From a virus, in IMG/VR virus record IMGVR_UViG_3300008469_000020, positions 1 through 23,876 of that record: a stretch of 23,876 bases of DNA, one strand, 5' to 3'. Under the pieces are notes generated by a model that was not told where the DNA came from, did not search any database, and was given only the letters and a program-made list of their open reading frames with translations. Below are positions 2,488-23,876 of the stretch, one piece after another. Numbering within the stretch: position 1 is the first letter of the stretch; the number at the start of each line of letters is the position of its first letter. The translations under genes and the position numbers were made by a program.

Positions 2488-3363
2488 TTATTCCACCTTA
2501 TAACATTCTGTATATCCACTGAATTTTTTCACATTATCAGGAAATTTAAATTTTTCTAATTTTGTTGTCATAATAAAATCTCTTTCCATTAATGCTGATT
2601 CTAAATTCGTAACCTTATGCTCTTCTAATATAATGTATTTATACTCATTATACTTATAATTGTATCTTTGTTTTATTGATTTACTAGTTATACCTATTTT
2701 TATAAATTCAAATCCTAATTTTTTATGTATAAATTTAAGTTTATAAAAAATACCTAATTTATTTCCTAAGTCCGGATTAAGTGTATATTTTTTGATATAA
2801 TTGAGTGAAGATTTTTGTTCATTAGAACATTTAGAACAACATGAACCATTAAGATGTGAACCTGGTGTTTGAAAGAATGAACCATGTTCAGGACATATTA
2901 TTTTTACTTTAGTATTAGCATCTATATAATTAACTTCAGAATAATCATATTTATTATGAATTTTATTTGCTTTTTGAATGAACTCATTAGTGTTAGATTT
3001 TCTTGATGAGCATTTTTTACATCCCATTGATTTTAAATGAGCTTCAGGAGTTTGTTGAAATTCTCCATGTTCAGGACATATAATAGTTACATTAGTTTTA
3101 CTATTAATATAATTAACTTCTGAATAATCGTATTTATTATGCTTTTCAGTAGCTTTTTGAATGAAGACATCTTTTCTATTTTGAAGAACACAAGATGGGC
3201 AATTTTGAGGTTTTAGATGATTGTTAGGTGTTTGAAAGAATTCTCCATGAATACTACATATTATTTTTACATTAGTTTTACTATTAATATAGTTCACTTC
3301 TGAATAATTGTATCTATTATTATGTATTTTATTTGCTTTTTTAATGAACTCTAATGTTTTCAT
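2488..3363 (-). CDS. Homing endonuclease-like: three zinc modules plus GIY-YIG-like domain
   Basis: A 291-residue protein. Three near-identical modules lie at about residues 4-58, 65-118 and 126-179. Each carries the Y(N/D)YSEVNYI start, an IIC-x2-HGxFxQTP core and a closing cysteine pair (CPSC, CKKC, CSKC). They belong to the same module family as in the next gene downstream. The C-terminus (about 203-289) looks like a GIY-YIG-type nuclease variant: GIFYKLKF, then FIKIGITSKSIKQRY with the expected Arg233, then Glu260 in ALMERDF and a closing FSGYTECY. The ATG has only a weak ribosome site and no late promoter; a hairpin lies just upstream. Homing activity is inferred from domain make-up. The GIY-YIG call is less certain than the zinc modules. 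Confidence 0.8.
   Translation of the reverse strand: MKTLEFIKKANKIHNNRYNYSEVNYINSKTNVKIICSIHGEFFQTPNNHLKPQNCPSCVLQNRKDVFIQKATEKHNKYDYSEVNYINSKTNVTIICPEHGEFQQTPEAHLKSMGCKKCSSRKSNTNEFIQKANKIHNKYDYSEVNYIDANTKVKIICPEHGSFFQTPGSHLNGSCCSKCSNEQKSSLNYIKKYTLNPDLGNKLGIFYKLKFIHKKLGFEFIKIGITSKSIKQRYNYKYNEYKYIILEEHKVTNLESALMERDFIMTTKLEKFKFPDNVKKFSGYTECYKVE
2780..3330. repeat. Tandem direct repeats encoding zinc modules (period about 180 bases)
   Basis: Three imperfect direct repeats of about 180 bases lie inside the 291-residue endonuclease gene. Closely similar blocks recur around 2875-2965, 3055-3145 and 3235-3320, each containing the codons for the YSEVNYI segment and the CxxHG segment. DNA-level similarity this high, rather than only protein-level, points to recent duplication or gene conversion among modules. 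More diverged copies of the same unit continue in the next gene (about 1730-2470). Confidence 0.75.
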
Positions 3364-3378
3364 TAAGTTTCTTAAGAC

Positions 3379-3403
3379 TAAGCAAGAGAAAATCTCTTAC
3401 TTA
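3379..3403 (-). terminator. Stem-loop just after the tail-tube stop codon
   Basis: On the minus strand an 11-bp stem (one G-T wobble) with a 3-base T loop begins one base after the tail-tube TAA. It is followed by GTCTTAAG rather than a run of T, so it is either a weak terminator or an mRNA 3'-end stabiliser for the abundant tube message. It would separate tube expression from the endonuclease genes downstream. Confidence 0.5.
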
Positions 3404-3404
3404 A

Positions 3405-3986
3405 TTATTCAGCTATAGCATTTTCAGTTGCTGAGTTTCCTGATAATGGGTCATTTAGTTCACCGTCACCAACTACCCAATCAGTAAATGTAAATGTAGT
3501 ATCGAATTCAGATACAGTATCAACTGTTTCATCAGAAATTTCAACAGCACCTACTTCAGATACAAATACATTATGAAATGTATATTTAGCAGTTGGATTA
3601 CCAGCAGAATCAAGTTGTTCAACACTTAGTTCTCCCATAACTTCACTAGGACTACCTGAATGTTGATTATTTTGAAAGTGGTCAGCAGACTTCATCCAAG
3701 AAATCATATCTTTTCTTAATCCGTGGTCTTCTGTTAAATAAAAACTAACAGTCCAAGAGTTCTCATACGCAGTATCTCCTGGTAAAATTAATTTACGACC
3801 TTGACCCCATACTTCTATTTGACCGATAGTCATACCTGGGAATTGAGTTGCTTTACATAAAGCATCAGCATCTTGTAAATTACTTGTGTTTGGAACTGTG
3901 CTTGGAATAGAGAAATTAATTCTATATTTTGAAGCTCTAGCACCAGCACCTATAGCAGATTTTAATTCAGCTAATTTATTTGGCAT
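3405..3986 (-). CDS. 19: Tail tube protein, T4 gp19-like (probable major tube)
   Basis: A 193-residue protein of the T4 gp19 tail-tube family, the hexamer-forming subunit of the inner tube. N-terminal block: AIGAGARASKYRINFSIP. Next CKATQFPGMTIGQIEVWGQG, RKLILPGD, then ENSWTVSFYLTEDH followed by a helix RKDMISWM. A second half contains FHNVFVSEVGAVEIS and a closing beta segment FDTTFTFTDWVV. It has its own late promoter (4019-4012), its own 3' stem-loop, a size close to T4 gp19 (163 residues) and a noticeably richer base composition than its neighbours. These features suggest it is the highly expressed main tube subunit, while the two longer paralogs upstream are specialised. That ranking is inference. 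Confidence 0.85.
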   Translation of the reverse strand: MPNKLAELKSAIGAGARASKYRINFSIPSTVPNTSNLQDADALCKATQFPGMTIGQIEVWGQGRKLILPGDTAYENSWTVSFYLTEDHGLRKDMISWMKSADHFQNNQHSGSPSEVMGELSVEQLDSAGNPTAKYTFHNVFVSEVGAVEISDETVDTVSEFDTTFTFTDWVVGDGELNDPLSGNSATENAIAE

Positions 3987-5604: not shown

Positions 5605-6144
5605 ATGTCTTTAGCAAATTCATTACAACAAGCATATGAAACAAGATGGTCTTATATAAACACTTTTAAAGTTATTTTTGGTTTTAGTGATTTCTTGTTA
5701 AAAAATGTTGGATGGACTAATTTTGATAATGATGACATTCAATTAAATATAATTTCAATAGATACACCTGAGTTCACAAATACACAAATAGAAGTATTTC
5801 AAGCTGACGAGTGGAGAATTCATAATGGGCGAGATGAATTATATAGATTTTCTGTAACATTTCGTGATAAAAATCAAATGGAATTATATAATAAGTTCAT
5901 ACAAATGTATAAAGTTCAAAGATTATCATATTTTGATGAAATTAAAAGCACAGTAACTATTGAAAAGGAAGCAGATTGGCTTAATGAAAAGGATAGAACA
6001 CTTTTATCAATGAGAGATGTTCTTATAGAGAATGTGTCTAAAGTTCAATTTAGTAACTCAACAGAAGCTCAAATTGCTGAATTTTCAGTAGGATTTAAAT
6101 GTACCAGATTTGAGTTCACAGCACCAAAAAAAGAAAATAAATAA
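5605..6144 (+). CDS. Tail-tube-fold protein, possible baseplate tube initiator (gp54-like)
   Basis: A 179-residue protein with a tail-tube-like arrangement: an N-terminal helix and strand (NTFKVIFGF), an IQLNIISIDTPEF strand, then EVFQADEWRIHNGRDELYRF. This is followed by VTFRDKNQMELYNKFIQMY and a late beta pair (VLIENVSKVQFSN, IAEFSVGFKCTRFEF). The FxVTFRD followed by a helix is the same fold step seen in the gp19-like genes on the other strand. It opens the baseplate operon under its own late promoter and a near-perfect ribosome site. In T4, gp54 and gp48 are tube-fold proteins that start the tube on the hub. Since a gp48-like protein is recognisable elsewhere here, this is a candidate for gp54. 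The tube-like fold is more certain than the specific role. Confidence 0.65.
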   Translation: MSLANSLQQAYETRWSYINTFKVIFGFSDFLLKNVGWTNFDNDDIQLNIISIDTPEFTNTQIEVFQADEWRIHNGRDELYRFSVTFRDKNQMELYNKFIQMYKVQRLSYFDEIKSTVTIEKEADWLNEKDRTLLSMRDVLIENVSKVQFSNSTEAQIAEFSVGFKCTRFEFTAPKKENK

Positions 6145-6159
6145 TAAAAAAGGATATAT

Positions 6160-6846
6160 GTGAAAACACCAGATTATAAATTCAAGTTAAAATTAAGAGA
6201 TAACACTATTAATTTCAGAAAATGGAAAGTGAAAGATAGAAAAAAATTCATAGATTCACTTAGAAATGAAGATAATATAGATGAAAGAAAAATATCAGAG
6301 TCATTAGTATATGATTGTATAGATAATGATATAGTATTAAGTTCAGATGAGTTCAGATATGTTTTAACTAAAATTAGAGAAGAATCAATTGGAGATACCG
6401 TAGATTTTAATTTTACATGTTCTAAATGTAAAGAAGATTTTACAGTTACTTATAAATTAGATGACATTTTGAAACCTGAATATAAAGAATATAGTGATAT
6501 TATTATAGATGATATTAATATAGAGATTGGAGATATTTCATTAAAAAAAGAATTCTATGACAAATATATTAGTGAATGTGAAAATATGAGTGAAATATAT
6601 TTTATAGATTTTTTAGCACATATTAAATCTATAAATTCAGATACATCTAAATCATTTAATGAATTGACAGAATATTTTGAAGATTTAGATACAGATATAT
6701 TTGACCAAATTCTTGATAAGTGGGAAGAAATGAGATTTAAAATAAATGATAAAAATGAAGTTACATGTTCACATTGTGGGTTTAAAGAAGATTATATATT
6801 TGATGATATTCCAGATTTCTTTCCTAAGAAGTGGTTCATTAGATGA
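6160..6846 (+). CDS. Baseplate hub assembly protein, gp26/gp51-like
   Basis: A 228-residue protein of the T4 gp26/gp51 baseplate family, which helps assemble the hub. Recognisable features are the FRKWKVKDRKKFIDSL start, a helical middle with VLTKIREESIGDTV, and a cysteine pair C87-x2-C90 directly after a DFNFTCSKC strand. A second pair C203-x2-C206 near the C-terminus suggests one shared zinc site. The start is GTG at 6160, chosen because AAGGA lies five bases upstream and no suitable in-frame ATG exists. The preceding ATG (6158) is followed at once by TGA. The stop overlaps the next gene by four bases (ATGA), so the two paralogous proteins are probably made in fixed ratio. Confidence 0.75.
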   Translation: MKTPDYKFKLKLRDNTINFRKWKVKDRKKFIDSLRNEDNIDERKISESLVYDCIDNDIVLSSDEFRYVLTKIREESIGDTVDFNFTCSKCKEDFTVTYKLDDILKPEYKEYSDIIIDDINIEIGDISLKKEFYDKYISECENMSEIYFIDFLAHIKSINSDTSKSFNELTEYFEDLDTDIFDQILDKWEEMRFKINDKNEVTCSHCGFKEDYIFDDIPDFFPKKWFIR

Positions 6847-9582: not shown

Positions 9583-10479
9583 ATGAAAAAAAAAGAAAAG
9601 TCAATTCCAAGTATAGTATTTCCTGAAATTTTAACTGAGGACTCTTATGAATATAGAAAAATACTTATACATGTGAAAAGAAATAATCTTAAAATAGATA
9701 ATTTTGATGATATAAGTAAGACAATTTCACATAAATATGATAAGATTAAAGAATCTTTACTAAAAACAACAAAATCATATGATGATGGATTTTCTAAAAC
9801 ATCATTAGAAAATGCTCATGCTAATCAAAAAGACATTCAAAATAAATTTGATGATGATGTGTCTACGATTTTCACTATTGCTTTACCATTACCTAATGAA
9901 TTATCAGATAGACAATCTCATCAATGGGGTGAAGCAACTGGTATAGCTAAAGAATTATCTGCTGGTGCTACAAAAGTAGTAGATACAATATTTTCAGATA
10001 AAAATAAAGTTGGGAAGTTAGCAGGAAAAGTTCCAAAAGTAGATGTTATTAGTGGATTAGTATCAAAAGCTGCTGATTCAGTGAGTATGAGAAAACCATT
10101 AGTAGACCCTAGTTACTATCAAAACTACACAGGTTCAACTATGAGAGATTTTACATTTTCATTTGATTTAATTCCTAATAATCCTAATGATTCTCAAAAT
10201 ATTCTTAATATAATATTAGCACTTAAAAAATTTAGTTCACCATCAACAGTAGTTTCATCTGCTGTTATTTTGTCACCTCATTTTTTTGACATAGAATTTT
10301 CTAATCCTTATTTAGATACAATGACTAATTTATATGGATTAGTTATTAAAAATATAGAAGTTCAATATGGTGCTAGTGGACAAATGGCTTATATAGGTTC
10401 TGATGGAATGTTAAAACACACAAGATTAACATTAACATTCGGTGAAAGAAGAATGATGACTTCTGAAATGTGGGGATAA
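9583..10479 (+). CDS. 48: Baseplate tail-tube junction protein, gp48-like
   Basis: A 298-residue protein resembling T4 gp48, the tube-fold protein that caps the hub and nucleates the tube. The N-terminal 110 residues are helical and variable. A ALPLPNELSDRQSHQW stretch and a glycine/alanine-rich helix follow. The characteristic C-terminal block begins at about residue 185: DFTFSFDLIPNNPNDSQN, an ILALKKFSSP helix, then HFFDIEFSNP, LYGLVIKNIEVQYG and a closing LTLTFGERRM. This FxFSFxLxPxN followed by a helix and two beta hairpins is the gp48 signature. The 298-residue length is below T4 gp48 (364 residues). Placement directly after the tape-measure candidate matches T4 gene order 29-48. Confidence 0.75.
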   Translation: MKKKEKSIPSIVFPEILTEDSYEYRKILIHVKRNNLKIDNFDDISKTISHKYDKIKESLLKTTKSYDDGFSKTSLENAHANQKDIQNKFDDDVSTIFTIALPLPNELSDRQSHQWGEATGIAKELSAGATKVVDTIFSDKNKVGKLAGKVPKVDVISGLVSKAADSVSMRKPLVDPSYYQNYTGSTMRDFTFSFDLIPNNPNDSQNILNIILALKKFSSPSTVVSSAVILSPHFFDIEFSNPYLDTMTNLYGLVIKNIEVQYGASGQMAYIGSDGMLKHTRLTLTFGERRMMTSEMWG

Positions 10480-10482
10480 ATC

Positions 10483-10941
10483 ATGAAAAATAAAATAATA
10501 AATTATGACATTATTGATAATCATATGGATTATAGAAGTAAAGATGTATCTAAAATATTGGCATTAAAAGAATTATCTGATACTAATTATATTGATTATT
10601 ATACACTTCAAGATAATGAAAAAATAGAAGGAGTTTCATACTATTTGTATAATAGCACTGTTTACTGGGACTTATTACTTCTAATAAATGAAAGAGACCC
10701 ATTATTCGGATTAACTTATGATTATGATTATATTGCTACAAAAGCAGAAGATAATATAGAGAGATATAATAGTTCTTATAATATAGATTTGTCTGTAGAA
10801 GACCCTGAATATTATCAAGAGTTAATTGATACAGAAATAGAAAGATTATCTTTAATTAATGAAGAAAATAGAACTATAAAAATAATAAAACCTAGTAAAA
10901 TATTAGATTTTACAAGAATATTATCTACATTGGATTATTAA
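10483..10941 (+). CDS. 53: Baseplate wedge protein, gp53-like
   Basis: A 152-residue acidic, tyrosine-rich protein matching the gp53 wedge family in size and layout. Key stretches are YRSKDVSKILALKEL, then YYTLQDNEKIEGVSYYLYNS and VYWDLLLLINERDPLFGLTY, where the W-x-L-L-x-x-N motif follows a tyrosine-rich turn. The middle is a helix (VEDPEYYQELIDTEIERL) and the C-terminus is basic. In T4 gp53 joins wedges to the hub. Its TAA overlaps the start of the gp27-like gene by one base (TAATG), so translation is coupled. In T4 gene 53 directly precedes gene 5, whereas here a gp27-like gene lies between. Confidence 0.7.
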   Translation: MKNKIINYDIIDNHMDYRSKDVSKILALKELSDTNYIDYYTLQDNEKIEGVSYYLYNSTVYWDLLLLINERDPLFGLTYDYDYIATKAEDNIERYNSSYNIDLSVEDPEYYQELIDTEIERLSLINEENRTIKIIKPSKILDFTRILSTLDY

Positions 10942-12131: not shown

Positions 12132-13331
12132 ATGGAATTGAAAAAAGGTGTAGTTGAAGACAATAAATCTCCACTAAAAGATGGAAAAGTTAGAGTAAGA
12201 ATATTAGGTGTTCATACAGAGAATAATGAGTTCTCAGATGAGAAATTCAATACAGTAAAATCTAGTGAGTTACCATGGTTAGAATGTATGGGGTCACTTG
12301 AAAATGGGTTAAATTCAGGTATAGGATTGTCAAAAATTCCAACACAAGGAACTATTGTTTGGTTATATTATTTTGAAGAATATCCAAATGATTCTATTGT
12401 AATAGGAACAGTTACAGGAAATCCAACAGAGACTTCTAAATATAAATCTGGTATAGGATTTAGTGATCCTGATGAAGAGTTCCCATTAAAAGAAAGATTA
12501 AATGAACCTGATATTAATAGATTAGCAAGAGCACAGAAACTTAGTTCTTCTGATTCAGATTCTGATTATAAAACAATACATCAAAAAATTATAGATAATA
12601 AATCTAAAACAGAAGAAAAAGATGATATTTCAGAAGCAGATGTTACACAAGAGGAACCTGATTCACTTAATGATAAATCAATTTATCCAAATGTTCAAGT
12701 TCTTGAAACTAAATCTGGTCATGTTATAGAAATAGATGATACACCTGATAATGAAAGAATAAGAACATATCATAAATCAGGTAGTTATATAGAAATAAAG
12801 CCTGATGGAAGTATAGTTACAAAAAGCACAGGTGAAGAAAATCATTATATCTACACTGGTGATGTGAATTCATATATAGAAAAAAATGTAAGAAGTTATA
12901 TAGAAGGTAATCTTGATGAATTAATTAGTGGTTATGTAAAAAGAAATATAAAGAATAACTTACAAGAGCATATTAATGGTGGTGTTAAAGAAAATATAGA
13001 TATGGACTTCTTTTCTAAGGTTAAAGGTTATTTTAAGATACAAGCTGATGGAAATTTAGAAATAATTAATGATGTTAAAATAACAGGAGGATTACTTGTA
13101 ACTAAAGATATAACAAGTTCAGGTGGAATAACTTCAAGTAAAGACATTCGTTCAGGTGCTGATATAGAAGATAGTGAAGGAAGATTAAGTATATTAAGAA
13201 CAACATATGATAGTCATGTTCATATAGGAAATTTAGGTATTCCAACAGCACCACCAACAACAACAGACCCTAAGAGTCCTGCTAATTATCCTGATTTTAC
13301 ATGGTCAAATTCTCCATTAGGATTTAAATAA
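12132..13331 (+). CDS. 5: Baseplate central spike, gp5-like, without lysozyme domain
   Basis: A 399-residue spike protein. Residues 1-100 form the OB-fold that seats on the hub: KKGVVEDNKSPLKDGKVRVR, LPWLECMGS, IPTQGTIVWLYYFE and IVIGTVTGNP. Residues 100-185 are a polar, serine/aspartate-rich linker. From about 190 the spike begins (LETKSGHVIEIDDTPDNERI, then IEIKPDGS). Residues 253-289 show aliphatic residues exactly every fourth position (V253, I257, L261, I265, V269, I273, L277, I281, V285, I289), which is the octad rhythm of a three-stranded beta-helix. The C-terminus has the family-typical HVHIG and proline/threonine-rich end. T4 gp5 carries a lysozyme domain between OB-fold and needle; here only the linker stands in its place. 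Confidence 0.82.
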   Translation: MELKKGVVEDNKSPLKDGKVRVRILGVHTENNEFSDEKFNTVKSSELPWLECMGSLENGLNSGIGLSKIPTQGTIVWLYYFEEYPNDSIVIGTVTGNPTETSKYKSGIGFSDPDEEFPLKERLNEPDINRLARAQKLSSSDSDSDYKTIHQKIIDNKSKTEEKDDISEADVTQEEPDSLNDKSIYPNVQVLETKSGHVIEIDDTPDNERIRTYHKSGSYIEIKPDGSIVTKSTGEENHYIYTGDVNSYIEKNVRSYIEGNLDELISGYVKRNIKNNLQEHINGGVKENIDMDFFSKVKGYFKIQADGNLEIINDVKITGGLLVTKDITSSGGITSSKDIRSGADIEDSEGRLSILRTTYDSHVHIGNLGIPTAPPTTTDPKSPANYPDFTWSNSPLGFK

Positions 13332-22091: not shown

Positions 22092-22099
22092 TATTTATA
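22092..22099 (-). promoter_or_regulatory. T4-type late promoter
   Basis: Exact TATAAATA on the minus strand, 25 bases before the 630-residue fibre gene. It overlaps the last codons region of the preceding gene. Confidence 0.8.
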
Positions 22100-22601
22100 C
22101 TCTAAGAGTTGGAGTATTATCTGAATAGATTATAGAGTAGTAATCATATTTTATATCAACACTAAAAGTTGTTTCAGTGCTATCATCCATTACATCAAGT
22201 TGAATATCACCTACACTTTCAAATCTACAATTATTATATTCAATTTTCATTACAGTTTTACCCATATCATCAGTCATTTCTACCCAAAGACTGAAAATAT
22301 TATCAGAGAATGTTCCTGTTTCTACATTTATTTTACTAAAAATAAGATTCATTATTTCTTTATATACAAGATAATCTTCATCTAGAACAATATCTAACGA
22401 AAGATTATTAAAAGTAACACTATCAGAAGCTAAATTAAATTTAGAACCAGTTCTACCACCTATTTCAGGAGAATTGAAGTTAATACCTGGTATACTCATA
22501 GTCTGAATAAAAAAAGGTAATATATCTAAATCAGAACTTCCACATTTATAGTTAGTTTTTTGAGAGTAATTCCTAGTATTAATACCATTAAGTGACCCCA
22601 T
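22095..22601 (-). CDS. Tail-tube-fold-like protein
   Basis: A 168-residue protein with tube-like segments: DLDILPFFIQTMSIPGINFN, then EIGGRTGSKFNLASDS and LSLDIVLDEDYLVYKEIMNL. A beta-hairpin half follows (VMKIEYNNCRFESVGDIQLD, TTFSVDIKYDYYSII). The pattern of P-G followed by a strand, then an I/V-L-D-E-D strand and helix, then a closing strand pair parallels the gp19-like proteins at 3405-5557. It also resembles short proteins that T4-like marine phages carry near their tail genes. It could be a tail terminator or a sheath/tube initiator. It is separated from the other tube genes by the whole baseplate block and has its own late promoter (22625-22618). Confidence 0.6.
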   Translation of the reverse strand: MGSLNGINTRNYSQKTNYKCGSSDLDILPFFIQTMSIPGINFNSPEIGGRTGSKFNLASDSVTFNNLSLDIVLDEDYLVYKEIMNLIFSKINVETGTFSDNIFSLWVEMTDDMGKTVMKIEYNNCRFESVGDIQLDVMDDSTETTFSVDIKYDYYSIIYSDNTPTLRV

Positions 22602-22617
22602 TATTAGTCCTTTATAG

Positions 22618-22625
22618 TATTTATA
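22618..22625 (-). promoter_or_regulatory. T4-type late promoter
   Basis: Exact TATAAATA on the minus strand, 16 bases upstream of the 168-residue tube-like gene. It is the first late promoter met when reading leftward from the right edge. Confidence 0.8.
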
Positions 22626-22634
22626 CTGATATAT

Positions 22635-23114
22635 CTAATACCAAACTAAGTAATTGTCATTAGATAGTTTAAATCCACCATCTATATCACCATTTTCTTT
22701 GCACTCTATATAGTCTTTTTGATTGATATTAGTGACTACTTTATCTTGGAATAAGTCAAAAAACTCTTTATCAAACTGCATAAATCTTTTGCCTTGAACA
22801 GTTACCGGTCTTGGATTAAATGGCATTTTTAACATATCTTTTTCTGGACAATTGAACTCTTTAACAAATACAGGTATTACCACTTTATCGCTAAAATCAG
22901 TAAATTCATCTTTAAATTTATAGATTATTTTATAGAAGTTATTTGGTAAATACTCAGATTTTGAATTTAAAAATGTACAAGTTCCTATTCTTAAAACAGT
23001 ATCTTTAATGTTTCTTCTCTCAATATCAGATACAAACATGCTAAAATTTGCAATATGAATATTTCCCTTAACCGCCATCTCGTTACTTAATATATAATTT
23101 TTTGGTATTAACAT
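22635..23114 (-). CDS. Protein of unknown function between smpB and tail genes
   Basis: A 159-residue protein I do not recognise. It has alternating strands (GNIHIANFSMFVSDI, VLRIGTCTFL, YKIIYKFKD) and a central PFNPRPVTVQGKRFMQFDKE segment, and it ends aromatic (NDNYLVWY). It contains two well-separated cysteines and no membrane segment. It has a ribosome site (AAAGGAAA) but no TATAAATA in front, unlike the genes to its left, so it may belong to the same transcription unit as smpB. No function is assigned. Confidence 0.55.
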   Translation of the reverse strand: MLIPKNYILSNEMAVKGNIHIANFSMFVSDIERRNIKDTVLRIGTCTFLNSKSEYLPNNFYKIIYKFKDEFTDFSDKVVIPVFVKEFNCPEKDMLKMPFNPRPVTVQGKRFMQFDKEFFDLFQDKVVTNINQKDYIECKENGDIDGGFKLSNDNYLVWY

Positions 23115-23149
23115 TTTATTTCCTTTATTCTATTTTAGCCAAATATAGC

Positions 23150-23614
23150 TTAGTTTTTTCTTAATAAATCTCTTTCTTTTATCGCCTCTCTTTTATCATA
23201 ATCTTTTTTACCTTTACCTAAAGCAAGAGTACACTTTATTCTATTGTTATCATCTGAATATACTTCAGTGATTATTAGTGTAGTACCTTTAACAAGTTTT
23301 TTCTCGAACTTCTGTATTTGCTTTTTATGTAAAAGTAATTTCTTAGGTCTAGTGGCATCTTCATATGTTGATTTCATAATAGGATAGTCTTCTAGTTTAT
23401 GATTATTAAAGAATTTATTAAAATTCACTCCTGAAACAGTAGCATTAAGCAGCCACACTTCTCCATCTATAATCTTTACATAGGAGCCTGTAAGGTCTAT
23501 ACCTTTCTCCTGCGCAATCTTTATCTCATAGCCTTGGAGTACAATACCGACTTCTAAGAAATCGCTTAGAAAGTAATCATACTTGGCTTTTCTATTTTTT
23601 GATTTAATTTTCAT
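23150..23614 (-). CDS. smpB: SmpB, tmRNA-binding protein (phage-encoded)
   Basis: A 154-residue protein that clearly belongs to the SmpB family, the partner that delivers tmRNA to stalled ribosomes. Landmarks in order: NRKAKYDYFLSDFLEVGIVL, LQGYEIK with the conserved glutamate, GSYVKIIDGEVWL, then ATRPKKLLLHKKQI. It closes with the GKGKKDYDKRE block. Two deviations stand out. After LQGYEIK the usual S-L-R is I-A-Q. The C-terminal tail after DKRE has only 11 residues (AIKERDLLRKN) against about 20 in E. coli or B. subtilis. In studied bacteria this tail enters the mRNA channel and is needed for tagging. Translation is probably coupled to the 74-residue gene, whose stop lies one base before the ATG. 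No tmRNA gene is visible here. Confidence 0.93.
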   Translation of the reverse strand: MKIKSKNRKAKYDYFLSDFLEVGIVLQGYEIKIAQEKGIDLTGSYVKIIDGEVWLLNATVSGVNFNKFFNNHKLEDYPIMKSTYEDATRPKKLLLHKKQIQKFEKKLVKGTTLIITEVYSDDNNRIKCTLALGKGKKDYDKREAIKERDLLRKN

Positions 23615-23615
23615 C

Positions 23616-23840
23616 TTAATCAGTTAAAGCATATAATTCATTATAAGCATCTTCTTTTGTTGCTGATTCTCTTACACCGTAATCACCGCCATATTTGATA
23701 TTATCTACATTTATTCCTATACCAATATAGTATATTTCGCTATTCTTATTGTAAATAATACTGCAATCTCCTCTATCTTGAGAAAATCTAGTTGCTATAA
23801 CCTCATATGGTTGTTTAAAGGCTTTATCAAATCTTGCCAT
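23616..23840 (-). CDS. Small protein directly upstream of smpB
   Basis: A 74-residue protein of unknown family, with a good AAAGGAGA ribosome site. It shows a basic start (ARFDKAFKQPYEVIATRFSQ), a short beta core (DCSIIYNKNSEIYYIGIGIN) and an acidic helical end (KEDAYNELYALTD). Its TAA is one base before the smpB ATG, and smpB has no separate ribosome site visible, so smpB is likely translated by re-initiation from it. That pairing suggests the two products act together or at least in fixed ratio. Nothing in the sequence shows a function. Confidence 0.6.
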   Translation of the reverse strand: MARFDKAFKQPYEVIATRFSQDRGDCSIIYNKNSEIYYIGIGINVDNIKYGGDYGVRESATKEDAYNELYALTD

Positions 23841-23876
23841 TTTATCTCCTTTTATATTTTCATTGGTTCTTTATAT

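Follow-up and report, generated by a model that had tools for sequence, protein, structure and literature searches.

The C-terminal tail of SmpB is the means by which the ribosome-rescue system senses that the mRNA channel is empty, and amino acids close to the end of this tail are thought to be essential. A phage gene that encodes an SmpB with a shortened tail raises the question of whether such a protein works in trans-translation or turns the system of the host off. The gene considered here is located at positions 23150..23614 on the minus strand of a 23,876-base fragment of one virus record (IMGVR_UViG_3300008469_000020; GC content 26%), the whole of which was analyzed and is referred to as the window. 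The ORF starts with ATG, encodes an SsrA-binding protein of 154 aa assigned to phrog_6791, and has PF01668 (SmpB) as its sole Pfam match (E = 3.5e-36; score 124.7 bits, curated cut-off 27). This match spans positions 3–136 of the 143 positions of the profile; the end of the profile is therefore missing in the window SmpB. The top PDB sequence matches of the ORF were SmpB structures, its AlphaFold model has a mean pLDDT of 90.1, and all 21 Foldseek matches at E ≤ 0.001 were SmpB, including 7ljp, 1p6v, and 4v8q.

A profile search of viral contigs identified a sister contig, L019 (IMGVR_UViG_3300026512_000032; 40,097 bp), and an alignment of 190 distinct SmpB sequences was compiled from the window, 59 IMG/VR contigs, 79 diverse bacterial genomes, 50 Campylobacterota, and one Salmonella. 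His or Tyr is usual in SmpB at the position stacking on G530. The KGKK and DKR motifs are present in both phage proteins, as KGKKDYDKR in the window (residues 134–142; 23189..23215, minus strand), with Tyr at the position of E. coli His136, and as KGKNTRDKR in L019, which has Arg at the G530-stacking position, as do 2 of the 79 bacterial SmpBs; a motif of this type has a role in the decoding center (PMC4151336). Tail length was counted as the number of residues past the DKR alignment column. The window tail (EAIKERDLLRKN; 23153..23188, minus strand) comprises 12 residues and extends to the equivalent of about residue 151 of the E. coli protein, compared with 13–27 residues (median 20) in the 79 bacterial proteins and 18–25 (median 20) in the 50 Campylobacterota. 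A 12-residue tail, the shortest in the comparison, was found only in the window and in L019, whose tail (NTIKERDLERAG) is unlike that of the window in sequence.

The first-pass annotation had described the tail as about 10 residues shorter than in well-studied bacterial SmpB. The shortening itself is borne out by this broad comparison, and the figure holds against proteins of the E. coli type (9 residues shorter than the 21 of Salmonella) but not against T. thermophilus, the tail of which we count as 15 residues and thus only 3 longer. The end of the tail is variable among SmpBs and lies outside the features that define the family. The replacement of S-L-R by I-A-Q after the conserved E-x-K had also been read correctly, but it carries little weight because this stretch varies widely (S-V-Q in L019). 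In the AlphaFold model, residues 138–153 form a helix, and alignment shows that I, K, and R are retained at the positions of E. coli residues 142, 143, and 145; the tail stops 3 residues before Ile154 and so falls short of the positions that E. coli residues 154–155 take up in the mRNA channel. The smpB gene ends with AGA AAA AAC TAA (23150–23160), which contains a slippery-type heptamer, A-AAA-AAC, at which a −1 reading would add LSYIWLK; this heptamer is not conserved in L019. An assembly error or frameshift was considered as the cause of the short tail and was rejected, as was a recent truncation, because the L019 tail, although different in sequence, is equally long, and the L019 stop codon is not preceded by a homopolymer run.

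E. coli SmpB tolerates the loss of its five C-terminal residues, but tagging is severely reduced when Ile154 and Met155 are removed as well (PMC8363625), whereas tail-truncated SmpB keeps its binding to tmRNA and the ribosome but is blocked in accommodation (PMC4151336). The E. coli protein from which Ile154 and Met155 have also been removed is left with 14 tail residues, and the phage tail has 12; by the E. coli rule, therefore, the phage SmpB should tag poorly. It was on this premise, which is sound for E. coli, that a shut-down of host trans-translation had been proposed: a dominant-negative SmpB would bind tmRNA and the ribosome without accommodation and draw tmRNA away from the host SmpB, whereupon trans-translation would fall. 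SmpB tails of similar shortness among relatives of the host had been named as evidence that would speak against this proposal, and none was found among the 50 Campylobacterota SmpBs, the tails of which are clearly longer. A precedent for interference also exists in the tmRNA fragment of mycobacteriophage DS6A, which consists of little beyond the tRNA-like domain and resembles tmRNA inhibitors (PMC4131195).

A second departure from other SmpBs, absent from the first-pass annotation, as was the sister contig with its tmRNA, is an enlarged central loop (residues 53–91; 23342..23458, minus strand), which was delimited from the alignments and the secondary structure of the model. It harbors a 14-residue insertion (about residues 72–86), within which a helix is predicted at residues 78–85, and the stretch from E52 to K92 measures 39 residues in the window and in L019, compared with 19–27 in every other SmpB of the 190. 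Because both the short tail and the insertion are conserved in L019, neither can be ascribed to sequencing errors. A part in alanylation and in the activation of EF-Tu has been proposed for the central loop (PMC4131195).

Directly upstream of smpB is a small ORF of 74 aa (23616..23840, minus strand), which had no match in Pfam or PHROG; its stop codon falls 1–2 nt ahead of the smpB ATG, suggesting that the two form one operon. Downstream are an unknown gene (22635..23114, minus strand), which has homologues in L019 (48% identity) and in a further phage contig, L269 (44%), and thus served as a synteny anchor, and then a gene for a tail-tube-like protein (22095..22601, minus strand; phrog_45, E = 3.6e-20; 54% identity to L019 and 52% to L269). 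Both follow smpB in the same order in L019, the SmpB of which is 63–64% identical to that of the window and hence better conserved than either neighbor. Substitutions between the two smpB genes are distributed 45/36/77 over the three codon positions, that is, mostly at the third. This pattern and the higher conservation than in the neighbors, together with tail and loop lengths that are equal in two phages with 63% identical SmpBs, make it very improbable that a captured smpB is decaying into a relic with the short tail as the first sign, the one point in favor of which is that the tail is the shortest of the 190. A chromosomal smpB at the edge of a prophage in ssrA, beside a host-type tmRNA, was likewise ruled out by gene context, since smpB adjoins tail genes of T4-like type and its two downstream neighbors recur in two other phage contigs.

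In L019, ARAGORN identified a tmRNA at positions 5852–6200, on the same strand as smpB (6255–6740) and 54 nt upstream of it, and a full-length match to Rfam RF00023 was obtained (87.4 bits). This tmRNA has 7 of 7 acceptor pairs, including the alanine-identity G3-U70, an encoded CCA (ACCA end), a TTCAACT T-loop, and a tag frame of the Campylobacterota type that reads ANTTNYRPALAVA followed by a stop codon; the tag is one residue off ANNTNYRPALAVA, that of five genomes in one Campylobacterota clade. BLAST similarity to tmRNAs of Campylobacterota is concentrated at both ends and around the tag, with little detectable elsewhere, and the functional parts therefore appear to have been kept. The search of the remaining sequence for ssrA that had been recommended gave no tmRNA at the gathering threshold in the 23.9-kb window, and none at E ≤ 10 over positions 22600–23876; since the contig ends 36 nt past the 74-aa ORF, the window phage may or may not carry a tmRNA of its own. 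In L269, both downstream genes are shared and a DprA-like gene occupies the place of the tmRNA and smpB of L019; smpB is absent from the whole of its 16.2-kb record, and a search of 13.1 kb of it gave no tmRNA. The tmRNA and smpB appear to be gained or lost as a unit, three contigs being a small sample. Scans for further clade members with insert-specific and neighbor-specific queries gave only L019 and L269, and those with the single proteins 12132–13331 and 22635–23114 as queries gave no relatives, so that two members with this type of SmpB, the window and L019, were found.

The window encodes T4-like tail and baseplate genes, including gp19-type tail tubes, a gp5-type hub, a baseplate wedge, and a DNA end protector (Pfam and PHROG matches). 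The closest INPHARED phages were the Vibrio phage Va1/VB_VaC_SRILMA group, with which the tail/baseplate module is shared in near-collinear order (tail tube 69% and hub 45% identical), and, in second place, the Campylobacter phage CP220 group, with which the same module is shared (tail tube 49% identical); no SmpB was found in the Vibrio and Campylobacter phage records listed. In a quick tree of SmpBs, only the window and L019 were joined (support 99) and the placement of both among bacteria was left open, so the assignment of a host rests on the tag and the related phages. We read the window phage as a T4-like myophage, with Campylobacterota as its probable hosts. SmpB was found in all 150 Campylobacterota genomes searched and a tmRNA match in 149, and the host therefore probably already owns a trans-translation system. 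The SmpB of H. pylori restored plating of lambda-immP22 on E. coli lacking smpB (PMC2862035). Elsewhere in the window, two proteins (1394–2485 and 2488–3363, minus strand) were seen by eye to carry repeated units in which CxxC motifs are combined with H-G patterns (such as ICPEHGxFxQTP...CPKC); they appear to represent a family of zinc-binding repeats, and the end of the first looks like a nuclease domain.

The sister contig bears directly on the dominant-negative proposal. The same short tail is coupled in L019 to a complete tmRNA that includes a tag frame, a feature that a decoy could do without but a system for tagging should have, and both genes are absent together from L269. The proposal is weakened further by a chromosomal Bacillota smpB with a 13-residue tail in a genome that has a tmRNA, and by the presence of tmRNA in 12 of 30 phage smpB records. 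We consequently regard a dominant-negative SmpB as unlikely, and shut-down of host trans-translation is not the best reading of the locus; the other suggestion of the first-pass annotation, that tmRNA is redirected to phage needs, fits better. The Bacillota gene (L168 and L170, at about 2989–3408, from uncultured Bacilli MAGs with isolates named Lapin) has the shortest bacterial tail; it adjoins an RNase R-like gene, as seen in L170, and the genome yields a full-length tmRNA match.

The tmRNA of L019 also bears on another reading, in which the phage SmpB would support ribosome entry and rescue with altered selectivity or resume-codon setting, with little tagging or a looser sensing of the empty channel. 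The end of the SmpB tail is in contact with helix H5 of tmRNA, and a contribution to the positioning of the resume codon has been suggested for it (PMC8363625), and it is this H5-contacting part that the phage protein lacks, while the central loop, to which alanylation and EF-Tu activation have been ascribed, is remodeled in the phage lineage. The H5 hairpin of L019 is weak (−4.8 kcal/mol, compared with a median of −10.2 in 34 Campylobacterota). However, H5 is equally weak (−4.7) in the host clade with the near-identical tag, a member of which, G041, the only one whose SmpB was read, has a normal tail of 19 residues; H5 weakness is thus not specific to a short tail, and a matched loss of H5 and tail was dropped as evidence and kept only as a lead. 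The tag ORF is, in addition, well preserved, and we consider an altered function of this kind to be improbable, somewhat more so than a decoy.

We favor, at a probability of roughly 0.6 as judged from sequence, the reading that the window SmpB functions in trans-translation for the phage despite its sub-minimal tail. The SmpB fold, the short tail, and the loop insertion are observed directly. The conservation of the latter two in L019 and the intact tmRNA–smpB cassette of L019 support this reading, as do the joint absence of both genes from L269 and the higher conservation of SmpB than of its two downstream neighbors; a tail of 12 residues when even 14 give severely reduced tagging in E. coli, the Arg at the G530-stacking position in L019, the lack of a tmRNA within the window, and a clade of two members count against it. 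The phage SmpB would associate with a tmRNA through its tRNA-like domain; this tmRNA would be phage-encoded in the sister and of either phage or host origin in the window phage. The complex would enter ribosomes stalled on broken mRNA, with KGKKDYDKR and a minimal 12-residue tail helix, in which the equivalents of E. coli residues 142, 143, and 145 are kept, being used in ribosome entry. Ribosomes would thereby be freed and incomplete proteins tagged during infection. We infer that the factor is active in a Campylobacterota host, and that the protein either does not need the missing end of the tail or makes up for it in another way, for which the enlarged central loop is a candidate.

A further point in favor is that a ClpP (E = 5e-49), a protease of the type by which tagged proteins are degraded, is encoded on the sister contig. 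A second protein resembling ClpP and a chaperonin of the GroEL family are encoded there as well (L174 11551–12126, 8773–9441, and 6521–8080), and these genes, with the tmRNA and smpB, possibly constitute a phage tag-and-degrade set.

Short tails are not confined to this pair. After the exclusion of chromosomal-looking smpB genes at prophage edges (by our own classification, those at a contig edge with a host-type tmRNA), phage SmpB tails were shorter than bacterial ones, with medians of 16.5 and 20 residues and with 16 or fewer residues in 20 of 40 compared with 1 of 75; the Mann–Whitney P of 2e-10 is only a guide, because related sequences were compared and the bacterial ones had been picked for their similarity to phage sequences. 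Most phage SmpBs cluster apart from bacterial SmpBs in the quick tree. The 12 tmRNA-carrying records among the 30 with phage smpB consist of 11 with an RF00023 match and one with a permuted tmRNA, and in several of them the SmpB tail is only 15–18 residues long. It is possible, although we place it somewhat below even odds, that a Campylobacterota myophage cassette tags with a tail below the E. coli minimum, a cognate tmRNA and the larger central loop making up for the loss, and that evolution has perhaps shortened the tails of phage SmpBs in general.

Several other records deserve mention. The permuted, two-piece tmRNA is found in a 369-kb phage contig (L065), in which it directly follows smpB (9992–10417 and 10503–10849) with a tRNA array on both sides. 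In a contractile-tail contig (L047), a tmRNA with the tag ANNTDFIPAYAVA and smpB are adjacent. Two phage tmRNAs (L276 and L277), both in records with smpB, were given unusually long tags by ARAGORN (GNTNEVGSVEDLVFALRNNILKANRLAVA and ATFLNGNIFNIDENFLANASVEVVAGEAIAA), the frames of which are perhaps mis-called. Low-score tmRNA matches in G004 and G006 look like tRNA genes (15–108 nt, far under the cut-off) and were discarded. In several SmpB-annotated records of Klebsiella, Acinetobacter, and Staphylococcus phages, the gene is located no more than about 50 nt from the end of the record, and these look like chromosomal prophage flanks and not like genes of the phage.

The window protein shares with PF01668 SmpBs such as those of T. 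thermophilus, T. maritima, and E. coli the common fold, the RKLLLH-type and KGKKDYDKR motifs, and the start of the tail helix, but its tail of 12 residues is shorter than those of bacteria (13–27) and its central loop is 12–20 residues longer. SmpB and tmRNA are known from huge and large phage genomes (PMC7162821). SmpBs of Lak and other huge phages in INPHARED are likewise encoded on the phage genome, in some records with a tmRNA; however, they are 31–38% identical to that of the window, and measured phage-borne tails other than those of the window and L019 have at least 14 residues. A tmRNA has been reported in 402 of 18,146 phage genomes (PMC9004378), and examples of phage tmRNAs are the two-piece tmRNA of Melnitz (PMC9004378) and those of Bacillus phage G, Bxz1, and Wildcat (PMC4131195); compared with these, the L019 tmRNA is in one piece, directly upstream of smpB, and bears a Campylobacterota-type tag, and none was seen in the window. 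The tail of Carsonella SmpB is also shortened, but there the tail and the central loop are both lost (PMC4131195) in a decaying endosymbiont, whereas the window and L019 share a loop that has grown as well as the short tail. No paper on phage SmpB tails was found in searches of the open-access literature. What is new is the combination of the shortest tail and the largest central loop in the set, conserved in two phages and adjacent to a tmRNA in one.

These sequences are a well-documented addition to the little-studied ribosome-rescue genes of large phages. A naturally occurring tmRNA–SmpB pair of a phage, with the tag retained but the tail-end residues lost, would show which part of the SmpB tail matters or, alternatively, would reveal a phage that turns rescue off.
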